Positions 44,353-61,662 of a DNA stretch of 64,000 nt are shown in pieces. The DNA is from Cohaesibacter celericrescens (GTDB taxonomy: Bacteria; Pseudomonadota; Alphaproteobacteria; Rhizobiales; Cohaesibacteraceae). Below the pieces are notes generated by a model. The model saw only the letters and a program-made list of their open reading frames with translations, ran no database searches and was not told the DNA's origin. Within the stretch, counting starts at the first letter, position 1, and each line of letters starts with the position of its first letter. The translations under genes and the position numbers were made by a program. The stretch spans positions 414,402 to 478,401 of the forward strand of contig NZ_PKUQ01000022.1 in the NCBI RefSeq assembly GCF_002866925.1, read 5' to 3'.

Positions 44353-44450
44353 GTCTTTTTCTCTCAAGCAAACAAGCAGGCTCTGTCGCAACAAACTAAA
44401 ATCGTGCAGCAGAGCCTTGTTTTGTTTTTAACAATTGAATTGAACGCGGT

Positions 44451-45104
44451 CTAACTGACCGTTGGCAGTGAAACCACCTTGTAGGCCATTTCGATCCGCT
44501 TACTCAAAACAGGATCGCACATTTCAAGCTTATACTCCAAAGCTGGCCGGACCCCACCAATTGCGCCCAAAGTGCCGCACAGCATTGCTGAATTGTCTTG
44601 CAATTGGGCAGCTGACATCAAATCGCCGAGTGGACGAATGCTTGCGAGCAAGCCTTCCTGATAGAGGACCCAGTTGCCATCCTCCATGATCCAACACCGC
44701 AGTTCAATTTGATCAACATGGTGCTGAACTTCATCAAAAGCCCAAAGCTCATTTGCCACCGGTTTGGCACAAATTTGCTTGGAAGCTGCAACGGAATAGG
44801 CCTCAAGTGCTCTGTCCGTATGGTCTGAGCCCAGACCGAGGTAAAGTTTATCGCCATGCTTGATGAGAACGGGTTCCACCTCCCCCGAGTTTTCCTCACC
44901 AAGCACTTCCATCTCTGAGGCTTGCGTCAAAAGAGCATTGGAGACGCGGTAAAACAGAGGGACTTGCGACGGCGGAGCAACGCCCAACTCCGCCAGTTCC
45001 TTGATATGATGTTCGACGGCTTCTAAATTGCGGCCGGTCCAGCCAGCGACGATCACATGATCAATCGCTATTGTAAGCTCTTTGCCATTGCATTGGAATT
45101 GCAT
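44451..45104 (-). CDS. DUF2848 family protein (FAH-fold-like hydrolase)
   Basis: A 217-residue protein with the DUF2848 hallmarks: VIVAGWTGRNLEAVEHHIKELAELGVAPPSQVPLFYRVSNALLT near the N-terminus and GLGSDHTDRALEAYSV in the middle. DUF2848 proteins are thought to be related to fumarylacetoacetate hydrolases; the reaction is unknown. AAAGGAAC is 9 bases before the ATG. It lies in the same operon as the TRAP genes and amidase, so it probably acts on the same substrate. Confidence 0.82.
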   Translation of the reverse strand: MQFQCNGKELTIAIDHVIVAGWTGRNLEAVEHHIKELAELGVAPPSQVPLFYRVSNALLTQASEMEVLGEENSGEVEPVLIKHGDKLYLGLGSDHTDRALEAYSVAASKQICAKPVANELWAFDEVQHHVDQIELRCWIMEDGNWVLYQEGLLASIRPLGDLMSAAQLQDNSAMLCGTLGAIGGVRPALEYKLEMCDPVLSKRIEMAYKVVSLPTVS

Positions 45105-45123
45105 TGCACGTTCCTTTATTCGT

Positions 45124-46413
45124 TTACTGCAACAAACGCGGCAGAATGAGTGCGAGATCTGGATAGGCAATCAAAACGCCAACCATACACAGCATAGTGA
45201 ATGCGTAAGGTGCAGCACCGACCATCACTTCGCTCATGTTGCCGCTTTTTCTCGCCCCCTGCACCACATAGAGATTGAGCCCCACAGGCGGCGTAATCAG
45301 AGCCATTTCGATCAGAACGATCATTAGAATGCCGAACCAGACTGGATCATATCCCAGTCCGGTAACAATCGGCACAACGATCGGAATTGTTACAACCATC
45401 AAGGACAGGGTTTCGATAAAGAAGCCCAGAACAATATAGATCAGCACGACCACGAATATCGTCATCAATGGGCCAAACCCGAGGTTTTCAAGGAGATTTC
45501 GCATTTCCGAACTTAACCCTGCAGCCGAAAGGGTAAAATTGAGAAAGGACGCGCCAATGATGACCAGCATAATCATAGAGGTGATTTTGACCGTGCCGAC
45601 GATGGCCTCGGAGATCATGCCCAATGAAACACCCCCGAACATGGCAGCAATCAAAAGTGCACCGCCAACTCCCACCGATGCGGCCTCGGTGGGAGTGGCC
45701 CACCCCTTGTAGATGGCGCCGATAATGGCGGAAAAGAGCAGAAAGATAGGCAACAAGTCGCCCAGCCCACCGATCATTTCCCGCAAGGGGAAGCGCCGAC
45801 GCTCGCCTCCTAACGACGGCCAGATCACGCATATGCAAACGGTTACCAGCATGAATGCGAGCGCCAAAAGGATCCCTGGTAACAAACCAGCCAGAAAAAG
45901 CTGCGGAATAGATGTTTGAGTTAGAAAACCATAAACGATGAGATTGATCGAAGGTGGGATCATAATCCCTAACGTGCCTCCGGCTGCGATTGCCCCGGAA
46001 AAGAGTCTGGGATCATAACCCAGTCTATCGGCCTGTGGCATGGCAACCGTTGCAACCGTCGCAGCTGTGGCGACTGAAGAGCCAGAGGTTGCCGAAAACA
46101 TTGTAGCGGTTGCGACATTGGCATGGATCAAGCCGCCAGGGAGCCAGGAGACCCATTTATCCAGCGCGGCATAAGTGCGTTCGGCAATGCCACTGCGCAC
46201 CAATATTTCGCCCAGCAACACAAAGAACGGGATTGCAATCAGAGTGGCGCTGTTGGACGTGGACCAAACCATATTGCCCAATCCGCGCAACAGCGGAAAG
46301 AGACTGAAAAATTGATCAACACCGAAACCGAGCAAAAAGAGGACGATACCGACAGGGATCGAGAGACTAAGCAAGCCCAAAAGGCCGATGGTAATAAAGG
46401 GTATCACAGCCAT
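45124..46413 (-). CDS. TRAP transporter large permease (DctM type)
   Basis: A 429-residue permease with about 12 membrane spans, of the ion-coupled TRAP type that imports organic acids or similar anions. It starts MAVIPFITIGLLGLLSLSIP, has the conserved GVATAATVATVAMPQADRLGYDPRL region near residue 118-140, and NLYVVQGARK near the C-terminus. The reading frame overlaps the end of the small permease gene by 10 bases, and AGGAGG lies just before its ATG. Together with DctP and DctQ below it forms one transporter. Confidence 0.94.
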   Translation of the reverse strand: MAVIPFITIGLLGLLSLSIPVGIVLFLLGFGVDQFFSLFPLLRGLGNMVWSTSNSATLIAIPFFVLLGEILVRSGIAERTYAALDKWVSWLPGGLIHANVATATMFSATSGSSVATAATVATVAMPQADRLGYDPRLFSGAIAAGGTLGIMIPPSINLIVYGFLTQTSIPQLFLAGLLPGILLALAFMLVTVCICVIWPSLGGERRRFPLREMIGGLGDLLPIFLLFSAIIGAIYKGWATPTEAASVGVGGALLIAAMFGGVSLGMISEAIVGTVKITSMIMLVIIGASFLNFTLSAAGLSSEMRNLLENLGFGPLMTIFVVVLIYIVLGFFIETLSLMVVTIPIVVPIVTGLGYDPVWFGILMIVLIEMALITPPVGLNLYVVQGARKSGNMSEVMVGAAPYAFTMLCMVGVLIAYPDLALILPRLLQ

Positions 46414-46967
46414 TCCTCCTGGGCACTGGCAATGCCAATAACACCTTCAACTTTTTTGAAACGGCCTTTGACGACCAAAACCATTGCAGATAGAAAAATC
46501 AGCCAACTTGAGAAAGCAAACCAGAGCCAGCCAGCAAACCACGGGATTTGTACCAGAGCCAGCGGTGTTTCGAGTGGCGTATTGGCCGTTGATGCGTTTT
46601 TCAAGGTAGTGGCAACCACTGGCCAGCACTGATTGGCAATAATGGCTACCGTCATCGCAAGTGAAAATAACGCGAAAAGATCGAAAAGCACGCGGGTTTT
46701 CTGCGGAGTGTTACTCCGCAGAAAATCAATGCGTACGTGAGACAGCTCGGTCAGAGCAAAACTCATTCCCCAAGCTGTTGCAATCGCCATGACATAACCG
46801 GATATCTCGTCGGTCCCTCCAAGGGAGGAACCGAGTTGCCGCATGGTGATGTCAACCAACACCAAGCCAGCACAGGCCAACAGAATAAATCCGGTGGCCA
46901 ATGCTATCCGTTTATTCCAAATGCGCACGGCGAGCAGAATGCGTTCTGCCATGTCTTCGAGCATCAT
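46404..46967 (-). CDS. TRAP transporter small permease (DctQ type)
   Basis: A 187-residue four-span protein (ALATGFILLACAGLVLVDIT, ISGYVMAIATAWGMSFALTEL, FDLFALFSLAMTVAIIANQ, WFAGWLWFAFSSWLIFL) with the conserved HVRIDF loop, typical of DctQ. Two consecutive ATGs are possible starts. It is located between dctP and dctM. Confidence 0.9.
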   Translation of the reverse strand: MMLEDMAERILLAVRIWNKRIALATGFILLACAGLVLVDITMRQLGSSLGGTDEISGYVMAIATAWGMSFALTELSHVRIDFLRSNTPQKTRVLFDLFALFSLAMTVAIIANQCWPVVATTLKNASTANTPLETPLALVQIPWFAGWLWFAFSSWLIFLSAMVLVVKGRFKKVEGVIGIASAQEEWL

Positions 46968-46973
46968 CCCACC

Positions 46974-48011
46974 CTATTTGGAAGCGATGGATACGCCGAC
47001 GACTTTACCAACGCTATCATTCCAGCGTTTGGCCCAGTCGGCACCGGCACGCTCGGCCCATTCAGGTAGCACTTTGGCTTCCAGAATATCACGGGCTTTG
47101 GCGATATCGGCGTCTGTGGCTTCAACTAGAACCATGGATCGTTTGTCGCCAGATTCACACTCACCATTGCCTGTCAGGCAAGCAATGTCATTAAGCAGAG
47201 CACCTTGTGCTGAGTCCCATGCAGGTGCTTCAAATTTAGTAGCAATCTGATCTGTGATCAGTTCTTGGGTGCCAGCATCGAGCGAATTCCATTTATCCAT
47301 ATTCATCGCTGTAACAACAGGATCCCAACCACCAAGCGGGATTGTCAAAAGATGGGTAGAAACTTCCCACCATCCGGCGCTATAGCCTGATCCGGCACCG
47401 GTGACAGCACAATCGACTACGCCTTTTTGCAGCGCTCCGGGCACTTCTGAGAAAGCAACGTTGACACCTTCGGCATCAAGAGCTTCTAGGAATTTTGCGG
47501 TCATTCGGCCAGATGCACGAATTTTTAAACCCTTAAGATCATCCAGGCTGGCGACTTCCTTGTTGCAGAAAACAACCTGTGGCGGATAGGGAGCAATAGC
47601 CAAAACCTTTGAATTGAAGCGATTGGCAAAAATCTCGTCAACCATAGGACGCGCGGCATCAACCGCTGCTTTGGCCTTGGCCGCGTCCATCGCCACCAGA
47701 GGAACATCAAGTCCTTCAAGTTCGGGTGCATCCGAAACCGCATAATCACCGACGGTCATAGCGACGTCATAGACGCCCTGCCCCAAAAGACGAAAAACAT
47801 CGGCTACGCCTAGATTCATTTCGTTGTGAGTGGTTACCTGTGTGGTGATTTTGCCACCAGATGCCTCGGGCAAAGTCTCGCCCCAGAATGGCGCTTCGTA
47901 AGCTTTGTGCAATGGCAAGCTTGACCAACTTCCAACCACATTCAGCTGTTCGGCTGATACGGGTGAAGAGATAGCGATTGCTGCTGTGAAAGAGAGTAGA
48001 ATCCTTTTCAT
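46974..48011 (-). CDS. TRAP transporter solute-binding protein (DctP type)
   Basis: A 345-residue periplasmic protein. The signal MKRILLSFTAAIAISSPVSA is cleaved at SA-EQ. The binding-site arginine is in LKGLKIRASGRM (near residue 168), typical for carboxylate recognition in this family. GGAG is 9 bases before the ATG. Its ligand must therefore carry a carboxylate, consistent with a pathway containing an amidase and a hydro-lyase. Confidence 0.93.
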   Translation of the reverse strand: MKRILLSFTAAIAISSPVSAEQLNVVGSWSSLPLHKAYEAPFWGETLPEASGGKITTQVTTHNEMNLGVADVFRLLGQGVYDVAMTVGDYAVSDAPELEGLDVPLVAMDAAKAKAAVDAARPMVDEIFANRFNSKVLAIAPYPPQVVFCNKEVASLDDLKGLKIRASGRMTAKFLEALDAEGVNVAFSEVPGALQKGVVDCAVTGAGSGYSAGWWEVSTHLLTIPLGGWDPVVTAMNMDKWNSLDAGTQELITDQIATKFEAPAWDSAQGALLNDIACLTGNGECESGDKRSMVLVEATDADIAKARDILEAKVLPEWAERAGADWAKRWNDSVGKVVGVSIASK

Positions 48012-48147
48012 ATGAATGCTCCGTTAGGTTCCCCTTGGGCATTTCCACGACGCCTGCTTTACCAAGACTACGAAGAAACGCAAATTTCTGGGTATCTACA
48101 TTTCCGATAATCATTACAAATTGCCGGAAATGCTATGGGTGAGTGAT

Positions 48148-48957
48148 TTATGCTTTTATTATTGGAACCTCTGCATCATCCGGGATGTTTGTTATCAGCA
48201 TATGTCCCGGTTTATGTGTGATGCAAAGGGGCAGTTTCGCGTTTTGGATGGCGGCCTGTGGCGTTACGCCGCAAGCCCAGAAGACGGGCAGATGACCGGG
48301 CAAAGACGGCACAGCGTCGCCCCAATCGGGATGTGCCAAATCTGAAATTCCTATTTCTGCAGGATCGCCCACGTGAAGTGGCGAGCCATGAGCAAGCGGG
48401 AATTGTCGACAGATGGAGTGCACTTCGTCAACCCTGTTTTCCGGTATCATGCGCATCGAGACAACAGTCGCTCCCGAGAATGGTCCTGCGGGAACCGTTT
48501 TCAGTGAGGTTTTATACATTGGCACTGTTTTATTGTTGGAGATATGCCAGACGTCTATGCCAGCTTTCAGCAAGGCATGCTCAAAGGTAAAAGAGCATCC
48601 CAAGGCGAACGTGATCATTTCATCGTTCCAGAAGGGAGAAATATCCCCTCTCTCCTCGTCCAGAACGCCATCCCGATAGATATTGTAGATGGGAATATCG
48701 GTTCTAATATCGATATCGTGACCTGCGGTCGTCAAATAGGGATCGCCTGTATCGGAAACAGCAACGAGCGGGCATGGCTTTGGATTTCTTTGGCAGAAAC
48801 GCATGAAATCCAATGCATAGATCCGGGGCAAGATCACGATATTGGCTTGCAAATACCCCTTTGCCAGACCTGCTGTGTGGGCATCATATTGCCCATCGCG
48901 AATGATTTGACGCAAATTCTGAGGATCTTTGGTTTTCAGCGTTTCATAGTTGAGCAT
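48148..48957 (-). CDS. Putative hydro-lyase of the YcsI / D-glutamate cyclase-like family
   Basis: A 269-residue protein of the YcsI (DUF1445) family: RQIIRDGQYDAHTAGLAKGYLQAN near residue 20-40, the long-conserved FWNDEMITFALGCSFTFEHALLKAG and HGSPLHVGDPAEIGISDLAHPDWGD. In Bacillus the family member lies in the 5-oxoproline (pxp) operon, which supports a role in cyclic-amide or glutamate-like chemistry. The start used is the second in-frame ATG, 8 bases after GAGGG. It leads the TRAP operon, 136 bases before dctP, and is divergent from the LysR gene. Confidence 0.85.
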   Translation of the reverse strand: MLNYETLKTKDPQNLRQIIRDGQYDAHTAGLAKGYLQANIVILPRIYALDFMRFCQRNPKPCPLVAVSDTGDPYLTTAGHDIDIRTDIPIYNIYRDGVLDEERGDISPFWNDEMITFALGCSFTFEHALLKAGIDVWHISNNKTVPMYKTSLKTVPAGPFSGATVVSMRMIPENRVDEVHSICRQFPLAHGSPLHVGDPAEIGISDLAHPDWGDAVPSLPGHLPVFWACGVTPQAAIQNAKLPLCITHKPGHMLITNIPDDAEVPIIKA

Positions 48958-49083
48958 GTTCATTCCCTCGTTAGGAATAGCTTGCCCAATATTTAACGAA
49001 AATCAAATCGATAATTTTGTGCTCACATGATAAAAATATTTTATCAAAGGACATTTCCGTCATACATAGCATGTGAGAATCCG

Positions 49084-50458: not shown

Positions 50459-50535
<77 letters not shown>

Positions 50536-50794: not shown

Positions 50795-50869
50795 TGGGGT
50801 GTGGCCAAGTGGTAAGGCATCGGTTTTTGGTATCGTGTATCGGAGGTTCGAATCCTCCCACCCCAGCCA
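50795..50869 (+). tRNA. tRNA-Gln (anticodon TTG)
   Basis: Full cloverleaf. Acceptor TGGGGTG/CACCCCA, D arm GGCCAAGTGGTAAGGC, anticodon loop TTTTGGT (TTG), T arm GGAGG TTCGAAT CCTCC, then GCCA (discriminator G plus encoded CCA). The first anticodon-stem pair (27-43) is a T-T mismatch in this sequence. Confidence 0.95.
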
Positions 50870-51276: not shown

Positions 51277-52170
51277 TCAGCTTGCCTTTGATGATTCTGG
51301 TGTAAAACCGCCTTTGCTTTGTACCGCGATTGTACCGCAGGCAATGCCTGCTTGCAGACAAGCCAAGGTATCAGCCCCTGCCAACCACTGATTCAAAAAG
51401 CCGCTATTGAACGCGTCGCCAGCTCCCGTTGTATCAACCGGCTGGGTCTTGATGGCTGGACAGTGGATCACACCCGACTCGGTTTTGACAAAGGCACCAT
51501 CCGCACCACATTTAACAACCCAGATCGGTTTAGAGGCCATTTCAACCCCCAAACTTTCAAGCCGTTGCGCTTCGGACTGATTGGGCAGGAATAAATCGAC
51601 CCGAGAGATCAAGGAAGCGGCGGCGATTGTTATGGAATCATCCCAACTGCAATCAAGAGAAATGGTCAGTCCGGCTTGTTTGGCCAAATCCAACAAATAA
51701 GGCTGTTCGATCAAGGTTGCCAGCTCGCCGATATGCAGATGGCCAATATTACGCTCTGTGAGCTGTTCCTGTGTCAGTCTTGGCAGAGCGGGGCCTACGC
51801 GACGGGTGATAAAAGCCCGATCACTTGGTTCTGACTGAGTAGCCTGATTGATTAGAGCAACCGTGACTTGAGGGTCGAGCGCCGGGTCCGATGCAGCGCA
51901 CAGGGAGGCATCAAGATCCGCAGCCTCAATCTGTTGCTGAACGATATCTCGAAAAGGCTGGTTGGGGATCATACTGGCCAGAAAGGCAGGGCGCCCAAGG
52001 CTCTTGAGGTAAGCTGCCGAAATGTAGGCCCCTCCCCCAGCATTCAACTCAAGGCCGCCGGTGAAGACCTCTGTCCCCATGGTTGGCAGACGTGGTACGT
52101 CCTGAAAGATCAGATCGCAATAGATGCGCCCAACACACAAAACCCCCATGGTTGCTGGCTTCGCCCTCAC
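51277..52170 (-). CDS. PfkB-family carbohydrate kinase
   Basis: A 297-residue sugar kinase of the ribokinase/PfkB family. The N-terminal GGxG-type motif is ELNAGGGAYISAAYLKSLG, and the C-terminal catalytic/anion-hole motif is DTTGAGDAFNSGF near residues 245-257 (the catalytic Asp in GAGD). GTG overlaps the ABC ATPase stop in a GTGA pattern, suggesting translational coupling. The alternative ATG is seven codons on. By operon position it phosphorylates a sugar-like product released from the imported compound. Confidence 0.9.
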   Translation of the reverse strand: MRAKPATMGVLCVGRIYCDLIFQDVPRLPTMGTEVFTGGLELNAGGGAYISAAYLKSLGRPAFLASMIPNQPFRDIVQQQIEAADLDASLCAASDPALDPQVTVALINQATQSEPSDRAFITRRVGPALPRLTQEQLTERNIGHLHIGELATLIEQPYLLDLAKQAGLTISLDCSWDDSITIAAASLISRVDLFLPNQSEAQRLESLGVEMASKPIWVVKCGADGAFVKTESGVIHCPAIKTQPVDTTGAGDAFNSGFLNQWLAGADTLACLQAGIACGTIAVQSKGGFTPESSKAS

Positions 52171-53225
52171 AGCAGTGTTTCTCCGGTTTCGGCGTCAAAC
52201 AGGTGCACATTGTCAATATCCGCTTTTAACTTCACATATGTGCCGGATTGTGGAGGGGTTCGGCCATCGGCTTTGGCAATGATTTCCTTGCCTGCATATT
52301 CGACATAAATAAGCGTCTCCGGCCCCAGAGTTTCAAGAACGGAAATCTTTCCTTTAATGAGAAAGTCATCATCCTCGGTCAGGTGGAGGTCATCGGGTCG
52401 CACACCCAAAATGATATTTCCCTCAAATGACACTCCCTGTGGGCCCGCAAACTTTTGGCCGTCTTTTAGTTCTATTTGTCCATTTGAAAGTGTCCCCTCA
52501 ATCTGGTTCATAGAGGGAGCGCCGATGAATTGCGCCACAAACACATTGGCCGGGCTGTGATAAACCTCGAACGGGGTTCCGACCTGCTGAATATAACCAT
52601 CTTTCATAATGACAATGCGGTCAGCCATGGTCATGGCTTCCACCTGATCATGGGTCACAAACACTATGGTATTGCCCACTCGCTGATGCAATTTTTTGAT
52701 TTCCAGGCGCATCTGGGTGCGCAATTGTGCATCAAGATTGGAAAGAGGTTCATCAAACAGGAAAACCGCCGGATCGCGTACCATGGCACGGCCGATTGCA
52801 ACGCGCTGACGTTGACCACCGGACAATTGGTTCGGCTTGCGATCCAGTAAATCCACCATATCGAGAATGGTTGCGACCTCTTGTATACGTGCTTCTTTTT
52901 CTGCTTTGGATTTATTGGATGTTCTAAGACCAAATCCGATATTCTTACGCACGGTCATATGAGGATAGATAGCATAATTCTGAAACACCATGGCGATATC
53001 CCGCTCTTTGGGTTCCAGATTGTTGACGACACGGCCATCAATCTCAACCTTACCCGAGGTGATTTCCTCAAGGCCAGCGATGAGGCGCAGGGTGGTGGAC
53101 TTTCCGCACCCCGATGGGCCGACAAAAACAACAAATTCACCATCTGATATCTCTAGATCAATACCATGGAGGATTTCAGTCTTGTCATATCGCTTGACGA
53201 GATTGCTTAGGGCAAGGTTGGCCAA
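52167..53225 (-). CDS. Sugar ABC transporter ATP-binding protein (UgpC/MsmK type)
   Basis: A 352-residue ATPase subunit: Walker A GPSGCGKST near residue 37, signature LSGGQRQRVAIGRA near 134, Walker B VFLFDEPLSNLDAQ, and a C-terminal regulatory TOBE region (from about residue 235). It begins at TTG, supported by GGAG 8 bases upstream; no nearby ATG fits. Stop overlaps the PfkB start. Together with two permeases and a binding protein it completes one importer. Confidence 0.92.
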   Translation of the reverse strand: MANLALSNLVKRYDKTEILHGIDLEISDGEFVVFVGPSGCGKSTTLRLIAGLEEITSGKVEIDGRVVNNLEPKERDIAMVFQNYAIYPHMTVRKNIGFGLRTSNKSKAEKEARIQEVATILDMVDLLDRKPNQLSGGQRQRVAIGRAMVRDPAVFLFDEPLSNLDAQLRTQMRLEIKKLHQRVGNTIVFVTHDQVEAMTMADRIVIMKDGYIQQVGTPFEVYHSPANVFVAQFIGAPSMNQIEGTLSNGQIELKDGQKFAGPQGVSFEGNIILGVRPDDLHLTEDDDFLIKGKISVLETLGPETLIYVEYAGKEIIAKADGRTPPQSGTYVKLKADIDNVHLFDAETGETLL

Positions 53226-53227
53226 GA

Positions 53228-54712
53228 TTAAATCTCCAATAGGTTTGAAAAGGCTTTCTTCAGGTTTTCCTGAGCCGTTGATCTGCGCTTTTGTCGGGCA
53301 TTTTTGTTGGCTACCAGTCGGGCGAGATCACCCTGATAGGCCTCGAAAGCATCGACCAAGGCGTGGGGGGCCGGACCACCGAAACGATCCCTGACAGCGA
53401 CAAAGGTCTCAATTGCAACGGCTTGGGAAAAAGCTTCTTTTCCCAATCTGGACGAACGCCCGACTTCCGTCTCGAAAGCGCGGCAGAAAGAGACAAAACC
53501 TTCACGTAACGGCTTGTTTTCCGCAATCACCGCTTTTGCCGTTTCTGCCGCAATTTCATGCGCTTGTCGGAAGCTTAATTTTTCCAGTCGCACCAATGTA
53601 TCGGCCAATTCAGTGATGGTGATACAGGCCGAATCCGCATTGGTATGAACGCGCTCCACATTGATTGAGCAAGCGGGCAAAAACGCACCAAGCAAAGCAA
53701 TCATTCGCCCCCCGCTTTCAAAGACCGCATAGCCAGCTTGCTGCACTTCCCCTTCACTGTCATTCATGTCGGTGTAGGGTGTGTTATGCATGATGTTGAC
53801 CATCATATCGCAACGTCCGACGCTTATGCTCGCAAGATGGCGCATATGCTCGATAGGAACGGGGTTTCGTTTTTGCGGCATGATGGAGCTGATCTGCACC
53901 AACGCATTTGGGACATAAAGCTGGCTCACCTCGAAGGAGGACCAGAAAGCCATGTCCTGAACGACACGCCCCAAATGTAAAAAGACCAGCTTCAATGCCG
54001 AATATAGCCCTGTGATATAGTCGACAGAGGCGATGCAACCATAGGAGTTGCGCAGCGGCGCCGAAAACCCAAGCAGGTCCGACACACGTTGGCGATCGAT
54101 TGGAAACCCGGAGGTCGTGATGGCTGCAGCGCCCATGGGACAATGATCAAGTCCAACAATGGCTGCATCCAGACGCGCACAATCGCGCAACAACACTTCG
54201 ATAACCGACGCAAGATAATGCCCGAATGTGGACGGTTGAGCCGGCTGGCCATGCGTATAGGCCACGATCGGAGTTTTGGCTTCTTGTCTGGCTTTGTCGA
54301 TCAGAGCAGCCGCAAGACCCTGTAATTGACCCATCATGGCTTCAGCACGGCTCTGCAAGGCAAATTTGAACAGGGTATGGTCCATGTCATTGCGCGAACG
54401 CGCGGTGTGCAAGCTGCCGCCGAGGTCTCCCAACCGCTGCCGCAACTCGGCTTCGATCAGGAAAAAATAGTCCTCATGCTCACCCGTATAAACCTGCTTT
54501 TCAACATCGATCTGGGCTTCAATATCAACCAGGGCATTAGCAATTGCCGAGGCCTGTTCTGAAGACAAGATTTGCGTCTCGGCCAACATGACCAAATGGG
54601 CTCGATTGATAGCCCCCATATGATCGGCATAGTGCGCCTTCACCGCATCAAATAGCGGAGCCAGAACGGTTTCCTTGTAAACGGGATCGGGGAATTTTGA
54701 ATGATCGATCAT
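53228..54712 (-). CDS. Argininosuccinate-lyase/fumarase superfamily enzyme (ArgH-like)
   Basis: A 494-residue enzyme that is mostly helical. The superfamily's signature loop is SSIMPQKRNPVPIEHMR near residue 288, with other conserved stretches THGQPAQPSTFGHYL and SGFPIDRQRVSDLLGF. Family members split a C-N or C-O bond to release fumarate. The gene is embedded between ABC permease and ATPase genes, so a biosynthetic ArgH is unlikely; it probably processes the imported ligand. ATG overlaps the preceding permease stop as ATGA. Confidence 0.85.
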   Translation of the reverse strand: MIDHSKFPDPVYKETVLAPLFDAVKAHYADHMGAINRAHLVMLAETQILSSEQASAIANALVDIEAQIDVEKQVYTGEHEDYFFLIEAELRQRLGDLGGSLHTARSRNDMDHTLFKFALQSRAEAMMGQLQGLAAALIDKARQEAKTPIVAYTHGQPAQPSTFGHYLASVIEVLLRDCARLDAAIVGLDHCPMGAAAITTSGFPIDRQRVSDLLGFSAPLRNSYGCIASVDYITGLYSALKLVFLHLGRVVQDMAFWSSFEVSQLYVPNALVQISSIMPQKRNPVPIEHMRHLASISVGRCDMMVNIMHNTPYTDMNDSEGEVQQAGYAVFESGGRMIALLGAFLPACSINVERVHTNADSACITITELADTLVRLEKLSFRQAHEIAAETAKAVIAENKPLREGFVSFCRAFETEVGRSSRLGKEAFSQAVAIETFVAVRDRFGGPAPHALVDAFEAYQGDLARLVANKNARQKRRSTAQENLKKAFSNLLEI

Positions 54713-55587
54713 CCCTTCAACCCCGCCATGACAACGCCGCGAATGATATAGCGTTGGAAAATCAAGAAAACCACCAAAGTAGGCAGTGTCGAGATCGCTG
54801 CTCCCGTCATAATCAACTCCCAAGCTACATCGGCTTCATCACCAAAACTGGAGAGGCCCACCGGAAGCGTATACATATCGACCGAATTGGTGACGATCAG
54901 CGGCCAGATAAAGGCTGTCCAGTTGCCAAGAAAGACAAAAATGGCTAGAGCGGCAAGGGCTGGTTTGACCAATGGCATGGCCACGGTCCACCATATCTGG
55001 AATTCGTTGAGCCCATCGATGCGTGCCGCTTCAATGAAATCATCGGGTACGGTTTCAAAAAATTGTTTCATTAAGAACGTTCCAAAAGCAGTCATTAATC
55101 CGGGGAACATGATCCCCCAATAGGTATCGAGCCATCCAAATTGCTGGGCCATAAGATACCAGGGGATCACCAGCATTTCTGTCGGGATCATCAATGTCGA
55201 GAGAATGGCGATGAAAATAATATAGCGCCCGGGAAAGCGGAATTTGCACAGGGTGTAGCCGACCAGACTATCGAACAGAATGTTGCAGATTGTCGTGATA
55301 ACAGCAATGACGATGGAATTGACGAACCAGCCAAAGAAGCGGCCATCTTCTAGCACATAGGTGTAATTCTCAATGGTCGGCTCGTCGGGAATAAGATTGA
55401 TATTGTAGACTTCATGTGGCCATTTGAGGGATGTTGAAATCATGTAGACGATCGGCATGACCATCAATATGCCGCCAGAAAACAGCAATATCCAGCGAAT
55501 GACCTGTCCCATGTTGGCAGGTTTTTTGGGCACCTTGGTTTCAAGAAGCGCTTTTGATGAAGGACGATTGGCTTGGGTGAAAGTCAT
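54709..55587 (-). CDS. Sugar ABC transporter permease (MalG type)
   Basis: A 292-residue six-span permease with the EAA cytoplasmic loop DDFIEAARIDGLNEFQIWWTVAMPLVKPALAAL near residue 185. It ends IIRGVVMAGLKG, typical of MalG-type subunits. Start and the previous stop overlap by one base (TAATG). Confidence 0.92.
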   Translation of the reverse strand: MTFTQANRPSSKALLETKVPKKPANMGQVIRWILLFSGGILMVMPIVYMISTSLKWPHEVYNINLIPDEPTIENYTYVLEDGRFFGWFVNSIVIAVITTICNILFDSLVGYTLCKFRFPGRYIIFIAILSTLMIPTEMLVIPWYLMAQQFGWLDTYWGIMFPGLMTAFGTFLMKQFFETVPDDFIEAARIDGLNEFQIWWTVAMPLVKPALAALAIFVFLGNWTAFIWPLIVTNSVDMYTLPVGLSSFGDEADVAWELIMTGAAISTLPTLVVFLIFQRYIIRGVVMAGLKG

Positions 55588-56540
55588 TAGCTGTCTTTCA
55601 AAATTCGGAGTTGAAGCAAGCTGACAATCAACAAGACGATGAACAGCACAACTGTTTGGGCCGCCGCATATCCCATGTCAAAGCTGGAAAAAGCAGTTTC
55701 ATAAATCATCAAGACCAACGGTTTGGTGGCATTGAGTGGCCCCCCGGGATCAAGCGTGGTCATATTGAAAACGTGATCAAAAATCCTTAGAAACCCGATC
55801 GACGAGAAAACCACAATGAACACAATCGTAGACTTGAGCAGTGGAATGGTGATTTCCCACAACATGGTCCAGTTGGAAACACCATCAATACGGGCCGCTT
55901 CATAATAGCTTTTGGGGATAGCACGAAGGCCCGCCATGAATATGATGATCTGAAAGCCCAACCCGGCCCAAACGGCAGGTGCCAACACTGCGGGCAATGC
56001 ATTGACAGTTGAATTGAGAAAATTGAATTGGGCAATACCCATGGTCGCGAGAATGTTGTTGAACAGTCCGCTGGGGACCGGTTGATAGAACCAGCGCCAG
56101 ACCCACGCCATGGCCACAGCCGATGTCATAAAGGGTAGAAAATAGAGCATGCGCAAAAAATTATGCATGAAGCGCAGTTTGTCCAGATTGTAGGCGATGA
56201 CAAAAGACACCACCAAACTGATCGGTGTTCCCAAAAACAAATAGATAAAGGTGTTTTTGAAGACCTTCCAGAAAACAGGATCGTGCCAGAGCTTGATATA
56301 ATTGTCCAAGCCAGCCCATGTGCGCGTTCCCAGCAGGTTCCAGTTCTGGAAAGAAATCAGGACTGCGCTGCCCGTGGGATAGAAACGAATGACACTATAA
56401 AAAATCACAGGCAACGCCAGAAAGGCCCAAGCCCAGACGATCTGTTTATGGCGTATGGATAAATTTCGATACATCGGTTGCTGGCTCACCTTGCCCGTTG
56501 TCGGGACGACGGATGACTGGAATGAAGGCCCAAGCTTCAC
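55587..56540 (-). CDS. Sugar ABC transporter permease (MalF type)
   Basis: A 317-residue six-span permease with the EAA loop KSYYEAARIDGVSNWTMLWEITIPLLKSTI near residue 215. Start taken as GTG after a G-rich Shine-Dalgarno-like stretch; an ATG 22 codons later is an alternative. First permease of the operon, 104 bases after the binding-protein gene. Confidence 0.9.
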   Translation of the reverse strand: MKLGPSFQSSVVPTTGKVSQQPMYRNLSIRHKQIVWAWAFLALPVIFYSVIRFYPTGSAVLISFQNWNLLGTRTWAGLDNYIKLWHDPVFWKVFKNTFIYLFLGTPISLVVSFVIAYNLDKLRFMHNFLRMLYFLPFMTSAVAMAWVWRWFYQPVPSGLFNNILATMGIAQFNFLNSTVNALPAVLAPAVWAGLGFQIIIFMAGLRAIPKSYYEAARIDGVSNWTMLWEITIPLLKSTIVFIVVFSSIGFLRIFDHVFNMTTLDPGGPLNATKPLVLMIYETAFSSFDMGYAAAQTVVLFIVLLIVSLLQLRILKDS

Positions 56541-56644
56541 CGCCCCCGTTTCTCCTCACTGAGGAAACAAGCAGAGGAATTTGGGGCCTTCAAGGGATCT
56601 GTGGCGCAAACCACAGACCCCTGTTCATGCGAACGGACAGGATC

Positions 56645-57904
56645 CTATTTTTTAGCCATAGCTTCATCAAGAAGCTTTTGCTCGGCCTCGGCAGCAATAG
56701 CGAGGCTTTCTGCTGGTGCCTGATCCTGAATGTCAATGCGCTGAACCATATCCATCATGATCTGACGCTGAGCCGATTCATTGACAAATTTGGTGGACTT
56801 TGCATATTCCAGTCCACGAATAAACGGACCGAACACCGGATCGGAACGGTTGGCCTCCGTCATGCCAACAGATGGTTTGGCAGGCAATTCACCAACCACA
56901 TCCAGCCATACCTGCATGGCTTCATCGGAGGTAACAAATTGCATAAATTTGACTGACGCATCAAATTTTTCATCTTTGGCCTTGGTTGTGATGGCGTTGA
57001 CCCAATAGGAAGAATAGTTGGACTTCGTGCCATCCGCGCCCACAGGCAACTCGGTAACGCCCCATTTAAGGCCACGTTGTTTTTTGAGGGACCCAATACG
57101 GAAAGATCCATCGATATGCATACCGGCACGCCCTGCCTTAAATGCAGCCTGAGGTTCGTCCATAAAGTCGAAGGACGTCACTTTGTGTGTCTTGGCAAGC
57201 CCTGTGTAATATTCCAAAGCTTTGAGGCCTGCTTCGTTGTTATAATTGACTTTTTTATAGTCATCCAAATAGGGATCGCCACCAAACTGACGCACCAAAA
57301 CTTCGCGGAACCAGTGATGATCCTGTGCGGTCATGCTTGCAGTGATACCCACTTGTGTAATGTTGCCAGCAACATCAACCTTGGTTAGCTTTTTGGCAAC
57401 CTCCACCAATTCTTCAAGAGTTTTTGGTGGGGTTTTTACTCCTGCCTCTTTGAACAAGCGTTCATTATAGAAAAGAGCCAAAGACCGCACGGCAGTGGGC
57501 AGCGCCCAATAATTCTCTCCGGAGCGCATGGCGTTTACCATTGGGAAGAAGTCTTTTTCGACCTGCTCTGGTGGAAAGCTGGCCACGGGTAGTGGCTGAA
57601 TCAGGTCGGCGCTCACATAATCATCGAGCCAGCCGTAAAAGAGCTGAACCACATCCGGCCCTTCGCCTGCCGGAATGGCCGCCGCCACCTTGGTGCGATA
57701 ATCGCCATATGGAAAGGTGGTCATTTTGACCGTAATATCAGGATTGGCTTTTTCGAAAGTTTCAATCAACTGATCCATCGCGGTGACACGTGCATCATAG
57801 AAATATTGCCAATATTCAATTTCCACCGCGTTGGCGGCGTTGGAAAACAGCGCCATGGCGCTCGTCGTTGCGGCAAGCGCTAAATTCTTCAAAGACTTTT
57901 TCAT
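56645..57904 (-). CDS. Sugar ABC transporter solute-binding protein
   Basis: A 419-residue periplasmic binding protein. Signal MKKSLKNLALAATTSAMALF is cleaved at ANA-VE. The mature part starts EIEYWQYFYDARVTAMDQLI and has family-typical WALPTAVRSLALFYNERLFKEAG. The aromatic-rich N-terminal strand suggests a carbohydrate ligand. AGGGGATC is about 10 bases before the ATG. First gene of the operon, just downstream of the ROK operator. Confidence 0.92.
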   Translation of the reverse strand: MKKSLKNLALAATTSAMALFSNAANAVEIEYWQYFYDARVTAMDQLIETFEKANPDITVKMTTFPYGDYRTKVAAAIPAGEGPDVVQLFYGWLDDYVSADLIQPLPVASFPPEQVEKDFFPMVNAMRSGENYWALPTAVRSLALFYNERLFKEAGVKTPPKTLEELVEVAKKLTKVDVAGNITQVGITASMTAQDHHWFREVLVRQFGGDPYLDDYKKVNYNNEAGLKALEYYTGLAKTHKVTSFDFMDEPQAAFKAGRAGMHIDGSFRIGSLKKQRGLKWGVTELPVGADGTKSNYSSYWVNAITTKAKDEKFDASVKFMQFVTSDEAMQVWLDVVGELPAKPSVGMTEANRSDPVFGPFIRGLEYAKSTKFVNESAQRQIMMDMVQRIDIQDQAPAESLAIAAEAEQKLLDEAMAKK

Positions 57905-57997
57905 ATTTGAGATCCCCTGATCAAACGGGCAAAATTTGGGTTGGACAAAATGAGTGATTGCATGCGGGCATTGGTCTTCTTTTTCTTTATAATTAGC

Positions 57998-58027
57998 TCA
58001 AGTAAGTTGAATGATCAAGTTACTTGA
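57998..58027. promoter_or_regulatory. Candidate ROK operator between the ABC operon and the regulator
   Basis: Imperfect palindrome with 13-bp arms: TCAAGTAAGTTGA (57998-58010) and TCAAGTTACTTGA (58015-58027), 4-base spacer, one mismatch pair. It sits 15 bases before the ROK ATG and 94 bases before the binding-protein start. Confidence 0.7.
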
Positions 58028-58041
58028 ATTAATGTCGACAC

Positions 58042-59253
58042 ATGATTTCAAAATTCGCGTCAAAAATTGGAGCAAATGCAGGCCGCTCCCGCAGTCACAA
58101 TCGGCAGGTCGTGCTCGGTGCCATTCACCAAGCAGGCAAGATCGGTCGCGCTGAGATTGCACGCAACTCAGGGTTAAGCACACAAGCCGTTTCCAACATC
58201 ATTGCCCAGCTTGAACAAGAAGGCATGTTGATTGAACAAGGCCGCCTTTCGACGGGCAGAGGCCTACCCTCGGTGCAATATGCCCTCAATTCCGATGGAG
58301 GATTTGCTTTCGGCATCGAAATGCGCCCGGATGTTATCTTTGCAGCCCTGCTTAATCTCAAAGGAGCGACCGTTTTTTCGAAACGAGCCAATCTGATCGA
58401 TACCAAGCCTGAACGTGTGATAGATCAGGTACTTACTCTACGCGATGAGGCGCTGGCGGCGACTGGGGTGGCACCTGAACGGGTCATGGGGGCAGGAATT
58501 GTGATGCCCGGCCCCTTTGGCAGCAACGGCCTGTCAGATAAAGGCACCGAGCTTCCCGACTGGCAACATTTGGATGCCAGTTCACTATTTGAAAAAGCGT
58601 TAGATCTGCCCGTTTTTGTGGAAATTGATGCAAATGCCGCAGCTTTGGGAGAGCGGATTCTGGGTGCAGCCAAGGGCCTAGAGACCTATTGCTTCCTATA
58701 TTTTGGTGCTGGTTTGGGCCTCGGCATTGTCACGGGCGGTCGCTTGTTCAATGGTGCTTTTGGCAATGCCGGAGAAATTGGCCATATTCTGGTGCCCGCA
58801 GTTGATAGCGACGCCTCTATTCCTTCTTCAAAAGCCTCCAGTGGCAGCGTCGAGTTGGAAAAGATGGTTAGTCGCCTGTCCGCACAACGTTACCTTGGCT
58901 CTGCTGGCTATGAAGTCCATTCAGGTGAGGATCTGTCTGCACTATACGCACAGGACACCCCTGCCCTTATGACGTGGTTAGACAGGGCCAGTGCCCCTCT
59001 CTCCCATGCCATTGCGACGATTGAAAATTTGTTTGACCCGCAAGCCATCATTCTTGGGGGAGCGATGCCTGATGCACTTCTCGATCACTTGATCACACAT
59101 ATCCGGCTATCCGATCGGTCTGTTGCCAATCGAACCGGAAGGCAACATCCTCGCTTATTACGAGGAAGCTCAGGTCGGATGACAGCAACATTGGGGGCTG
59201 CAGCCCTTGTGATCAACCATGCCCTTACGCCACAAATCACAGTTCCGAGATAG
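58042..59253 (+). CDS. ROK-family transcriptional regulator without the zinc motif
   Basis: A 403-residue ROK repressor. The N-terminal wHTH reads GRAEIARNSGLSTQAVSNIIAQLEQEGMLIEQGR (near residues 35-68). The sugar-kinase-like domain carries EIDANAAALGE and FGAGLGLGIVTGGRLFNGAFGNAGEIGHI. The usual CxCGxxGC zinc cluster that follows the GEIGH motif is missing: the place reads VPAVDSDASIPSSKASSGSVELEKMVS with no cysteines. It is divergent from the ABC operon and shares the palindromic operator. The PIG-L gene follows after only 9 bases, so it is co-transcribed. Confidence 0.9.
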   Translation: MISKFASKIGANAGRSRSHNRQVVLGAIHQAGKIGRAEIARNSGLSTQAVSNIIAQLEQEGMLIEQGRLSTGRGLPSVQYALNSDGGFAFGIEMRPDVIFAALLNLKGATVFSKRANLIDTKPERVIDQVLTLRDEALAATGVAPERVMGAGIVMPGPFGSNGLSDKGTELPDWQHLDASSLFEKALDLPVFVEIDANAAALGERILGAAKGLETYCFLYFGAGLGLGIVTGGRLFNGAFGNAGEIGHILVPAVDSDASIPSSKASSGSVELEKMVSRLSAQRYLGSAGYEVHSGEDLSALYAQDTPALMTWLDRASAPLSHAIATIENLFDPQAIILGGAMPDALLDHLITHIRLSDRSVANRTGRQHPRLLRGSSGRMTATLGAAALVINHALTPQITVPR

Positions 59254-59262
59254 ATATATATT

Positions 59263-61662
59263 ATGCCATTTTCAGACCCTTCCCGACTCGCCGCAGAAGC
59301 CTCCCAGCCGTTAGTTTTGCAATTATGGGAGGCCCTACAACCACTTAAATCAGTGATCCGCTTCATGGCAAGTGGAGCCCATCCAGACGACGAAATGTCG
59401 GCGATGCTTGTCGCGATGGCTTTAAAGGACGGTATTAATCTTTCCTATGCATGCGCCAACCGCGGAGAAGGAGGGCAAAATGACATCGGAACCGAAACCG
59501 GTGCGGATCTCGGAGCCTTGCGCACAGCTGAGATGGAACGCGCAGCAAACCGGCTTGCTATGCGGCTTTATTGGCTATCGGTGCGGCCTGATGACAGCAT
59601 CATAGACTTCGGCTTTTCCAAAAGCGGCGACGAGACCCTACAGAAATGGGGGCGAACCCGCACGCTGAAACGCTTTGTTGACATCATCCGAAGCGAGAAA
59701 CCCGATATTCTTTGCCCCACATTCCTTGATGTGCCCGGTCAACATGGCCACCACCGTGCCATGACCGAACTCGCGCATGTGGTGATGACGGAAGCAGCCA
59801 ATCCGGATTTTGCCGACAGCGGATTGCCAGTGTGGCAGGTCAAAAAACTATATTTGCCTGCTTGGTCCGGTGCAGGTACGGCCTATGACGATGATGTGCC
59901 ACCTCCCCCTGCGACTTTAACCATTTCTGCGCGCGGTTTTGATCCGATTAGTGGCTGGAGTTATGAACGCATTGGTCAACAATCAAGAATGTTCCACAAA
60001 ACCCAAGGGATGGGGCGGTGGATTCCTGCCGGGTCCGAGAGAAATTTTCTGCTGCATTTGGCCCAAACGCACGTCGCGGGGCCCGATGATTGTGTCATGG
60101 CCGGTCTGCCCCATACACTCATGGACCTCTCCCGCTTCACAAAGGACCCGATCTTTGCAGGGCATTTAAAGCAAGCCGAGACGGAAATATCCGCAACGAT
60201 TGCTGCTTTCCCCGATATGGCGACAGTAGTTGAAGCAGCGTCTTCGGCTTATCTGCATGTCAGCCAAGCCCTGTCACATTGCCCAGACGCGGCCAAGACG
60301 GATTGTCTGCATCGGCTTGTTGCCAAACAGCGCCAGTTAGCGCGGGTTATCGCACTTGCAAGCGGGATCAACATCCATGTGAGGTCTGACGAAGACTGGG
60401 TTCGCCCGGGGGATCAACTAACCCTCACCCACGAAATAAGACCTCCCATGAATGGCATTGATTTTAGCTATCAGCTTGATCTTCCACACGGCTGGAGTGT
60501 CGATAAATCACAGGACCAAAAATACACGATAAGCCTTTCCGAAGAGGCTGCGATTACCGATCCCTATCGCTGTTTTCATGACCCTGACGAACCAATTGCA
60601 CCCGCTATGATTGTCACCCTTTCTGGCCATGGCATAACCAGCAAAACCCGACATAAACTTGAAATTCCTCCTGTGGTTCTGCCAGCATGTTCAGCTCACC
60701 TTGCACCGGTCAACCATGTCGTCAATCTTGCCAATTCAGATCGAACACTGGAAATCGAACTTTCCGAGCTTCATCCCAGCGATGCAACGCCAAGCCTTCA
60801 AATGCCCGATGGCTGGCTTCTGGAACGCCATGCCAAAGGCTTTAAAATTCAGCTGCCCGAACAGCTGTCTGAAGGGCTGTATACTCTGCCCCTCAGTCTG
60901 GACGGCAATGAGGCGATGACCATCATTCCCATTGCCTATGATCACATTGCGCCTACGGCAAGGGCCTACCCGGCCTGCATTCAAGTGCGTGTTTTAACCG
61001 CCGAGCTGGGTAGTCAATCTGATGATCGCCTGATTGGTTATATTGGTGGTGGCAATGATCGTGTTGGAGAGTGGATGGCTGCCATTGGCGCAAATGTCGA
61101 GAATGTTGACGCCAAGGCTTTGCAAGACCCTGCCGCACTGGCGCGATATGATTGTTTGCTGGTGGGCATATTTGCCATGCGGTTTCACCCGACGCTGAGC
61201 CAATCCATGGATAAAATCCACGATTGGGTTAATCAGGGCGGCACGCTTATCACTCTTTACCATCGCCCTTGGGACAATTGGAATCCGGATCAATTCCCGC
61301 CTCACAAACTGGAGATTGGGCAGCCTTCCTTGCGCTGGCGCGTAACCGATGAGACCGCAATCGTTACCCACCTTGAGCCTCAGCATGGTTTACTCAACCA
61401 ACCCAACCCTATCGGGGCAGAAGATTGGCAAGGATGGCACAAGGAACGTGGGCTGTATTTTGCCAAGCATTGGGACGAGTCTTATACGCCGCTGTTGTCA
61501 ATGGCCGACCCGGAAGAAGACGCCCTGCAAGGAGCCTTTTTGGTTGCCCCTATTGGCAAGGGCCAGCACATACACACATCCCTCATTCTGCATCATCAAA
61601 TGGAAAAGCTTGTACCAGGAGCCTTCCGATTGATGGCCAACATGGTTGCTTGGCGAGGGTAA
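59263..61662 (+). CDS. Large PIG-L family deacetylase with C-terminal ThuA/amidotransferase-like domain
   Basis: A 799-residue protein. Residues 1-~260 are a PIG-L/LmbE zinc deacetylase: the metal motif AHPDDE near residue 39-44, the acidic ACANRGEGGQND, and the metal His in PGQHGHHRAMTELAH near residue 165. Residues ~530-799 resemble a class-I amidotransferase/ThuA-like domain, with a rotation of RLIGYIGGGNDRVGEW, YDCLLVGIFAMRFHP and IHTSLILHHQMEKLVPGAFRL. PIG-L enzymes remove an N-acetyl group from GlcNAc-type conjugates. Probably co-transcribed with the ROK gene. Confidence 0.88.
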   Translation: MPFSDPSRLAAEASQPLVLQLWEALQPLKSVIRFMASGAHPDDEMSAMLVAMALKDGINLSYACANRGEGGQNDIGTETGADLGALRTAEMERAANRLAMRLYWLSVRPDDSIIDFGFSKSGDETLQKWGRTRTLKRFVDIIRSEKPDILCPTFLDVPGQHGHHRAMTELAHVVMTEAANPDFADSGLPVWQVKKLYLPAWSGAGTAYDDDVPPPPATLTISARGFDPISGWSYERIGQQSRMFHKTQGMGRWIPAGSERNFLLHLAQTHVAGPDDCVMAGLPHTLMDLSRFTKDPIFAGHLKQAETEISATIAAFPDMATVVEAASSAYLHVSQALSHCPDAAKTDCLHRLVAKQRQLARVIALASGINIHVRSDEDWVRPGDQLTLTHEIRPPMNGIDFSYQLDLPHGWSVDKSQDQKYTISLSEEAAITDPYRCFHDPDEPIAPAMIVTLSGHGITSKTRHKLEIPPVVLPACSAHLAPVNHVVNLANSDRTLEIELSELHPSDATPSLQMPDGWLLERHAKGFKIQLPEQLSEGLYTLPLSLDGNEAMTIIPIAYDHIAPTARAYPACIQVRVLTAELGSQSDDRLIGYIGGGNDRVGEWMAAIGANVENVDAKALQDPAALARYDCLLVGIFAMRFHPTLSQSMDKIHDWVNQGGTLITLYHRPWDNWNPDQFPPHKLEIGQPSLRWRVTDETAIVTHLEPQHGLLNQPNPIGAEDWQGWHKERGLYFAKHWDESYTPLLSMADPEEDALQGAFLVAPIGKGQHIHTSLILHHQMEKLVPGAFRLMANMVAWRG

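Follow-up and report, generated by a model that had tools for sequence, protein, structure and literature searches.

A conserved, unassigned catabolic operon of Cohaesibacter celericrescens, proposed to act on an N-acylated glucosamine joined to a C4 dicarboxylate

The stretch of 64,000 nucleotides from Cohaesibacter celericrescens analysed here (the window) contains, at positions 51277-61662, eight genes for a sugar-type ABC importer (a binding protein, two permeases and an ATPase), a lyase of the argininosuccinate lyase (ArgH) superfamily, a PfkB-family kinase, a ROK-family regulator and a PIG-L-domain hydrolase. The operon is real and strongly conserved, far beyond chance. We consider it moderately probable that it regulates itself and serves the catabolism of a conjugate of N-acylated glucosamine with a C4 dicarboxylate, such as a malyl glycoside or similar compound; all reactions, their order and their regulation are ones that we infer. 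The pathway class proposed in an earlier sequence-only reading of the window is partly supported and stands with stronger evidence, while the operon itself is still unassigned.

A search of genome contigs with the lyase yielded 210 relatives, the best 80 of which (61-72% identity by best segment) were taken as the core set (loci are given as L numbers). Core loci come, by our assignment, mainly from records of Rhodobacterales and Hyphomicrobiales, plus two Granulosicoccus-type records. Presence of a gene was counted only in loci where its place is visible. On this basis the lyase, with which the set was gathered, is present in 80/80, the ATPase and permease 2 in 77/77 each, permease 1 and the binding protein in 76/76 each, PIG-L in 73/73, ROK in 74/76 (not found in L067 and L071) and PfkB in 73/77. 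Gene order and strands share one plan across the core loci, so the neighbours are conserved elsewhere, a point on which the sequence-only reading had depended. Some further loci (for example L194, L197 and L183) are not independent of the core 80 or of the plasmid set, as they seem to come from the same species as L077, L055 and L097, respectively. No annotation is available for L125 and L126. A stop interrupts the PIG-L gene of L113 (G314, a genome 67% complete), which may reflect an error of assembly or a broken copy.

The lyase is not the sole ArgH-like protein of its genome. A true ArgH, 30% identical to it and scoring 587 bits, is encoded at G000:C3 (G000 being the window's genome). In a phylogenetic tree of 45 rows, built without L161 and L168 (whose lyases were in a wrong reading frame), the 25 ArgH-like rows form one clade (100/100) and the nine ArgH rows fall outside it; clustering with true ArgH, which would have undermined the earlier proposal, did not occur. 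Six Deinococcus lyases adjoin the ArgH-like clade (99/94), a sister placement that is not firm because the tree flags their long branches. The window's lyase scores 270.9 bits on TIGR00838, below the cut-off of 279.5, and some relatives pass it (296-297 bits, and 282.5 for L124), so this model does not separate the clade and is a weak test. On the XcbC model the lyase reaches 177.5 bits against a cut-off of 575, with TIGR00838 and PRK06705 scoring higher. The lyase retains the superfamily segments HTxRSRND, YTHxQ and SSIMPQKRNP but differs from ArgH at positions next to them. Compared with the nine ArgH rows, EDIHM is replaced typically by ED(Y/F/W)FF, RSRNDQVAT by RSRND(M/I)DHT, NSLD by NSYG and NPDAAEL by NPVPIEH, and the arginine of SDRD is lost. 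The closest solved relatives of the lyase are listed as argininosuccinate lyases and include entries 6g3d and 6rx8, which we take to be ethylenediaminedisuccinate (EDDS) lyase.

The PIG-L hydrolase belongs to its superfamily by both profile and motif: its Pfam score of 63.3 bits exceeds the gathering threshold of 28.2 bits, and HPDDE at residues 40-44 together with H161, H163 and H164 is invariant in 41 aligned members. The best NCBIfam model is Mca, which matches weakly in all 41 aligned members (E up to 0.01); on TIGR03446, the model for Mca/Bca thiol-conjugate amidases, the protein scores 25.5 bits, short of the cut-off of 277.15. According to the part of PMC4101496 consulted, the LmbE-like (PIG-L) enzymes known by 2014 have N-acetyl- or N-acylglucosamine as their substrate. 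Relatives of this hydrolase were also met in Streptomyces and Nonomuraea.

Genes for glucosamine-6-phosphate deaminases lie near the cassette in 16 of the 80 core loci, namely 15 NagB-II-like genes (L006, L010, L013, L019, L020, L030, L036, L045, L048, L050, L054, L060, L063, L068 and L080) and one NagB (L043). By a rough estimate, with two such genes per 5.0-Mb genome and flanks that account for about 0.8 Mb of the 1.58 Mb, some 0.3 linked NagB-II-like genes would be expected by chance. Eleven of the 15 are on the same strand directly behind PfkB, with a dioxygenase-like gene between in L010 and L013; the others are behind PIG-L and an EamA transporter (L030), on the EamA side (L063 and L050), or 1-2 kb past PfkB on the opposite strand (L019). 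For the two core proteins scanned, the NagB-II scores are 234 and 277 bits (the cut-off of 430 is not reached), against about 20 on fructoselysine deglycase. Four SIS proteins encoded next to cassettes were scanned (L063, L068, L124 and L193), and all match NagB-II best. Beyond the core set, NagB-II-like genes are found in Roseomonas L124 (313 bits), L168 and L193, and NagB in Loktanella (L097 and L101), L183, Paroceanicella L102 (242.1 bits, above the cut-off of 236.9) and L185 (222.5, below it). With 99% identity between the NagB proteins of L183 and L097, the loci L097, L101 and L183 were treated as one lineage. The place of PfkB is taken by a ROK kinase in L097, L101, L102, L124, L162 and L181-L185, and NagA is found in two core loci (L019 and L063). 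The window's genome encodes two NagB-II-like proteins elsewhere, which score 294 and 283 bits and so fall short of the cut-off, and no match to NagB-I was found in it.

The co-occurrence of a deaminase, a sugar kinase, a fumarate-type lyase and PIG-L suggests a substrate of three parts, that is, an acyl group, glucosamine and a dicarboxylate. In the proposed route, the binding protein, two permeases and ATPase would import the conjugate and PIG-L would strip its N-acyl group. The lyase would then eliminate the dicarboxylate as fumarate, and the freed glucosamine would be phosphorylated by PfkB, or by the ROK kinases of relatives, to glucosamine-6-phosphate, for conversion by NagB-II or NagB into fructose-6-phosphate and ammonia. 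The deaminase would be supplied from near the cassette in some relatives; as the window's genome has two NagB-II-like genes elsewhere, the route could finish there in trans. The sequence-only reading had claimed an N-acetylated amino-sugar conjugate with a dicarboxylate. Its amino-sugar half gains from the deaminases near cassettes and the ROK kinases replacing PfkB, its dicarboxylate half still draws only on conserved superfamily motifs, and for its acetyl group cysteine is a serious alternative.

Bacillithiol is Cys-GlcN-malate (GlcN, glucosamine) and, with its precursors, supplies all three parts: cysteine or acetate, glucosamine and malate. From pathway logic and a few thiol genes, bacillithiol or its GlcN(Ac)-malate part is the most likely concrete substrate. 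We tentatively propose, at rather less than an even chance, that the cassette lets its carriers feed on bacillithiol, or on fragments of it, released by other bacteria; in this scheme PIG-L would be a cysteine-freeing amidase and the lyase would split glucosaminyl-malate into glucosamine and fumarate. The freed cysteine may be handled in some relatives by a thiol dioxygenase or an EamA exporter. An EamA transporter adjoins PIG-L in 49/80 core loci, some of which do not reach that side, and none is present in the window. Thiol dioxygenase-like cupins are found in four of the 80 core loci (L010, L013, L027 and L064) and in L098. One type lies directly behind PfkB (L010, L013 and L027) and the other behind PIG-L and EamA (L098 and L064). 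One member of each type was compared with solved chains: that of L010 is nearest to mercaptosuccinate dioxygenase (E 2e-5) and that of L098 to 3-mercaptopropionate dioxygenase (E 9e-14), while cysteine dioxygenase-type entries rank lower. The parts of PMC6282198 consulted list bacillithiol as predicted or shown in Bacteroidetes, Deinococcus-Thermus, Firmicutes and other groups, so that a supply in sea and soil is plausible. A role in bacillithiol biosynthesis was set aside, as BshC has no match in the window's genome; the same search matches 3/14 control genomes, including Bacillus subtilis. No catabolic pathway with this gene set, and no breakdown of bacillithiol or GlcN-malate, was found described in the open-access literature searched, an absence that is not proof.

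Several observations weigh against the proposed route. No deaminase lies within the available DNA of 64/80 core loci or beside the window's own operon, and PfkB was not found in L042, L050, L057 and L081. The stretches read of L102, L124, L127, L168 and L180 show no PIG-L, which is thus not part of every cassette version, and in L158 a PIG-L relative has neither lyase nor importer within 20 kb. Among the NCBIfam kinase and PIG-L models, none attains its cut-off. The dicarboxylate half is suggested by the conserved superfamily motifs of the lyase, in a superfamily that cleaves N-, O- and S-linked groups (PMC9706529, in the part consulted), and no motif examined discriminates a malate from an aspartate substrate. 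Further points bear on bacillithiol in particular. Thiol genes occur in few loci, and the five dioxygenase cases amount to two or three lineages because the L064 and L098 cassettes are near-identical; no thiol-handling gene lies beside the window's operon. The thiol-pathway models are the sole NCBIfam PIG-L models with matches, and the resemblance to Mca is weak. A YfcG-like glutathione-dependent disulfide oxidoreductase is encoded directly behind the ATPase, with PfkB absent, at L081:12604-13227 and L192:7859-8485; the two proteins are 93.8% identical and represent one lineage. In four of the five loci read of family f58 (L159, L160, L178 and L179) the lyase faces PIG-L with no sugar-type importer in the stretch read, and a peptide-type binding-protein gene is nearby (best on GsiB in L178, the one scanned, at 113.6 bits against a cut-off of 594).

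Other substrates and functions were weighed against these. The aspartate-sugar of Maillard chemistry is an unlikely substrate, although it accounts for several of the genes. In the Heyns product, formed by non-enzymatic Maillard chemistry, aspartate is N-linked at C2 of glucose; from it the lyase would give fumarate and glucosamine directly, for the kinase and deaminase to follow. This would explain the lyase, the kinase and NagB, and also why the stretches read of L102, L124 and L168 show no PIG-L, but it leaves PIG-L without a role despite its presence in 73/73 core loci, offers none for the thiol dioxygenase-like genes, and fits poorly with a sugar-type importer and with the NagB-II-like character of the four scanned SIS neighbours. 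A cluster that looks like Amadori breakdown, and favours such a substrate, is found on plasmid d of Cereibacter sphaeroides (L153:1371-8549), where a lyase cousin occurs with an asparaginase, a GntR regulator, an amino-acid ABC importer and a SIS protein whose best match is fructoselysine deglycase (79.7 bits, cut-off 430); it may be a pathway of the fructose-asparagine type that includes a lyase step. For the cassette itself a fructose-asparagine type was set aside, since the four scanned SIS neighbours are NagB-II-like and only the Cereibacter cousin is deglycase-like. It is quite unlikely that the operon serves amino-sugar salvage with a lyase directed at some other beta-substituted acid, for instance a sulfonate or a phosphate ester, like the XcbC branch of the superfamily. 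The match to the XcbC model speaks for this and its distance from the cut-off against it, the other two models outscoring it. On pAM01 of Aminobacter sp. MSH1 (L095:18938-27543) a taurine importer, xsc and pta start about 1.6 kb past the EamA gene of the cassette, a few genes downstream, which would favour this reading; the taurine genes were met in that one annotated record only.

We judge it very unlikely that the lyase cuts a succino group off sulfur in S-(2-succino) adducts of a sugar thiol or cysteine, like the lyase of the yxe loci. Lyase-class-I enzymes free fumarate from N-acetyl-S-(2-succino)cysteine, and the known strategy acetylates an amino acid, breaks it down and deacetylates it (both from the part of PMC9706529 consulted), but the eight genes include no acetyltransferase, and a sugar kinase or NagB would not be needed; the thiol dioxygenase-like genes of five loci would fit. 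That the gene is simply argH, serving arginine metabolism, is hardly credible, although the relatives carry this annotation in 8/8 alphaproteobacterial plasmid cassettes and some of them exceed the TIGR00838 cut-off. Plain ArgH was set aside on the tree and the second genomic copy; ArgH-typical residues are replaced, and the cassette holds no arginine genes.

The two transcripts are divergent from a shared promoter of 137 bases, which contains a double palindrome, TCAA-N5-TTGA-N4-TCAA-N5-TTGA with TTAA-like flanks, that had escaped the earlier reading. Promoters were compared for the window and 77 relatives (78 in total; 77 of the 83 loci tried gave a promoter). All 16 palindrome letters are present in 48/78 and at least 13 letters in 70/78, while letter-shuffled promoters reach 13 letters in 4/1560 cases. 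The eight promoters with 10 or 11 letters (L033, L049, L062, L064, L069, L077, L080 and L098) have no clear full site. In a search for the exact site in 27 cassette-bearing genomes, nine have one site each and 18 none. That of the window's genome lies in the cassette promoter, and the other eight are 3.0-4.0 kb from the lyase gene; the same search with the site read backwards gave none in the 27 genomes. A wider ROK regulon was thus discarded at exact match, as each site-bearing genome has a single, cassette-linked site. The palindrome is a probable ROK operator. The ROK protein probably keeps both transcripts of the shared promoter repressed as long as the substrate is absent.

All eight genes claimed earlier are present, and their families agree with the Pfam matches (Table 1). 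The tight overlaps also follow from the coordinates, at 55587 and at 52170/52167. The start of the lyase was corrected: the listed frame of 531 amino acids begins 37 codons early, and the likely ATG at 54712, giving 494 amino acids, overlaps the permease stop as ATGA. The importer fits the sugar-type (UgpC/MalK) class, with an ATPase, two permeases and an SBP_bac_1/8 binding protein in one operon, and the closest solved chain of the binding protein is an acarbose/maltose-binding protein.

Table 1. Genes and candidate operator of the operon, in window coordinates.
Feature	Position	Strand	Matches and proposed role
PfkB-family sugar kinase	51277..52170	-	Pfam PfkB 109 bits; proposed to make glucosamine-6-phosphate
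ABC importer ATPase, UgpC/MalK type	52167..53225	-	NCBIfam PRK11650/UgpC 489.6 bits, cut-off 432
ArgH-superfamily lyase	53228..54712	-	Pfam Lyase_1 and ASL_C2; proposed to release fumarate and glucosamine
Sugar-type ABC permease 2	54709..55587	-	BPD_transp_1
Sugar-type ABC permease 1	55587..56540	-	BPD_transp_1
Carbohydrate-type solute-binding protein	56645..57904	-	SBP_bac_8 142.9 bits
Probable ROK operator, divergent promoter	57992..58033	.	TCAA-N5-TTGA, N4, TCAA-N5-TTGA, TTAA-like flanks
ROK-family transcription regulator	58042..59253	+	Pfam ROK 122.8 bits and weak winged-helix matches
PIG-L-domain hydrolase, 799 amino acids	59263..61662	+	Pfam PIG-L 63.3 bits at 38-172; proposed N-acyl removal from glucosamine

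The cassette is accessory. PIG-L (E <= 1e-20) is found in 9/289 genomes of the class and 10/150 of the order, and the lyase in 6/398 genomes of the phylum (E <= 1e-90) and in 32/292 of the order around G252 (E <= 1e-80), with the centre genome included in each count. In the window's own genus, three of nine further genomes hold a more distant version (lyase 59%, PIG-L 39-40%), and the window's lyase groups with Rhodobacterales rows, which suggests that the cassette was gained horizontally by this genome. About 740 and 410 bases beyond PfkB lie tRNA-Pro (50459-50535) and tRNA-Gln (50795-50869), the same two that flank the cassette of L050; an island inserted at a tRNA was dropped as an explanation because tRNA genes occur in only 13/80 core loci. 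At 43042-48963, upstream of a LysR gene, are open reading frames that we take, from their translations, to be amidase-like, TRAP transporter-like and DUF1445-like; they are likely a second uptake cluster.

Analogous genes in a different order, with a second PIG-L, are found in Deinococcus. Plasmids of D. ficus and D. wulumuqiensis carry ROK, lyase, a large PIG-L, a binding protein, two permeases, a short PIG-L and a carbohydrate kinase. D. deserti is without the large PIG-L, and three other Deinococcus plasmids have only lyase, binding protein and permeases in the stretch read. Only the D. ficus set was scanned: NEW3 domains occur in its large PIG-L, and its short PIG-L stays below cut-off on both MshB (score 160.6) and Mca (score 123.9).

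As the lyase is called argininosuccinate lyase in the public plasmid records examined, its misnaming probably conceals a conserved catabolic pathway of Alphaproteobacteria from sea and soil. If the substrate is bacillithiol, the proposed step would give a well-studied lyase superfamily a new activity, and the cassette would bear on the fate, after cell death, of one of the most widespread bacterial thiols, for which no described enzyme was found; we know of no earlier catabolic route for it, and this would be the first. Its carriers would include at least one bacterium without BshC and, in another gene order, Deinococcus of a thiol-making lineage.

Several known systems resemble the cassette in part. 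Bacillithiol biosynthesis (BshA, BshB and BshC) and the amidase Bca are alike in using GlcNAc-malate (GlcNAc, N-acetylglucosamine), GlcN-malate and PIG-L enzymes, but these systems make or recycle the thiol, and the parts of PMC4101496 and PMC6282198 consulted describe no lyase that splits GlcN-malate; the window's genome, moreover, lacks a BshC match. Breakdown of S-(2-succino)cysteine (yxe loci, 2SL) likewise has a fumarate-releasing lyase and a deacylation step, but its substrate is an amino acid, and the part of the source consulted describes no sugar kinase, NagB or PIG-L. ArgH and EDDS lyase have superfamily and catalytic segments in common with the window's lyase. ArgH differs in its separate position in the tree and in the clade motifs that replace its own (ED-x-FF, RSRND-x-DHT, NSYG and NPVPIEH for EDIHM, RSRNDQVAT, NSLD and NPDAAEL), while EDDS lyase was compared by pairwise alignment only. 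Fructose-asparagine and fructoselysine breakdown act on sugar-amino acid conjugates with a PfkB-type kinase and a SIS-domain enzyme; the cassette differs in that its four scanned SIS neighbours are NagB-II-like rather than deglycase-like. Finally, N-acetylglucosamine catabolism (NagC/ROK, NagK, NagA and NagB/NagB-II) is alike in its ROK regulator, its sugar kinase and the NagB-II, NagB or NagA of some relatives, whereas the cassette adds a lyase and a large PIG-L and has NagA in only 2/80 core loci.

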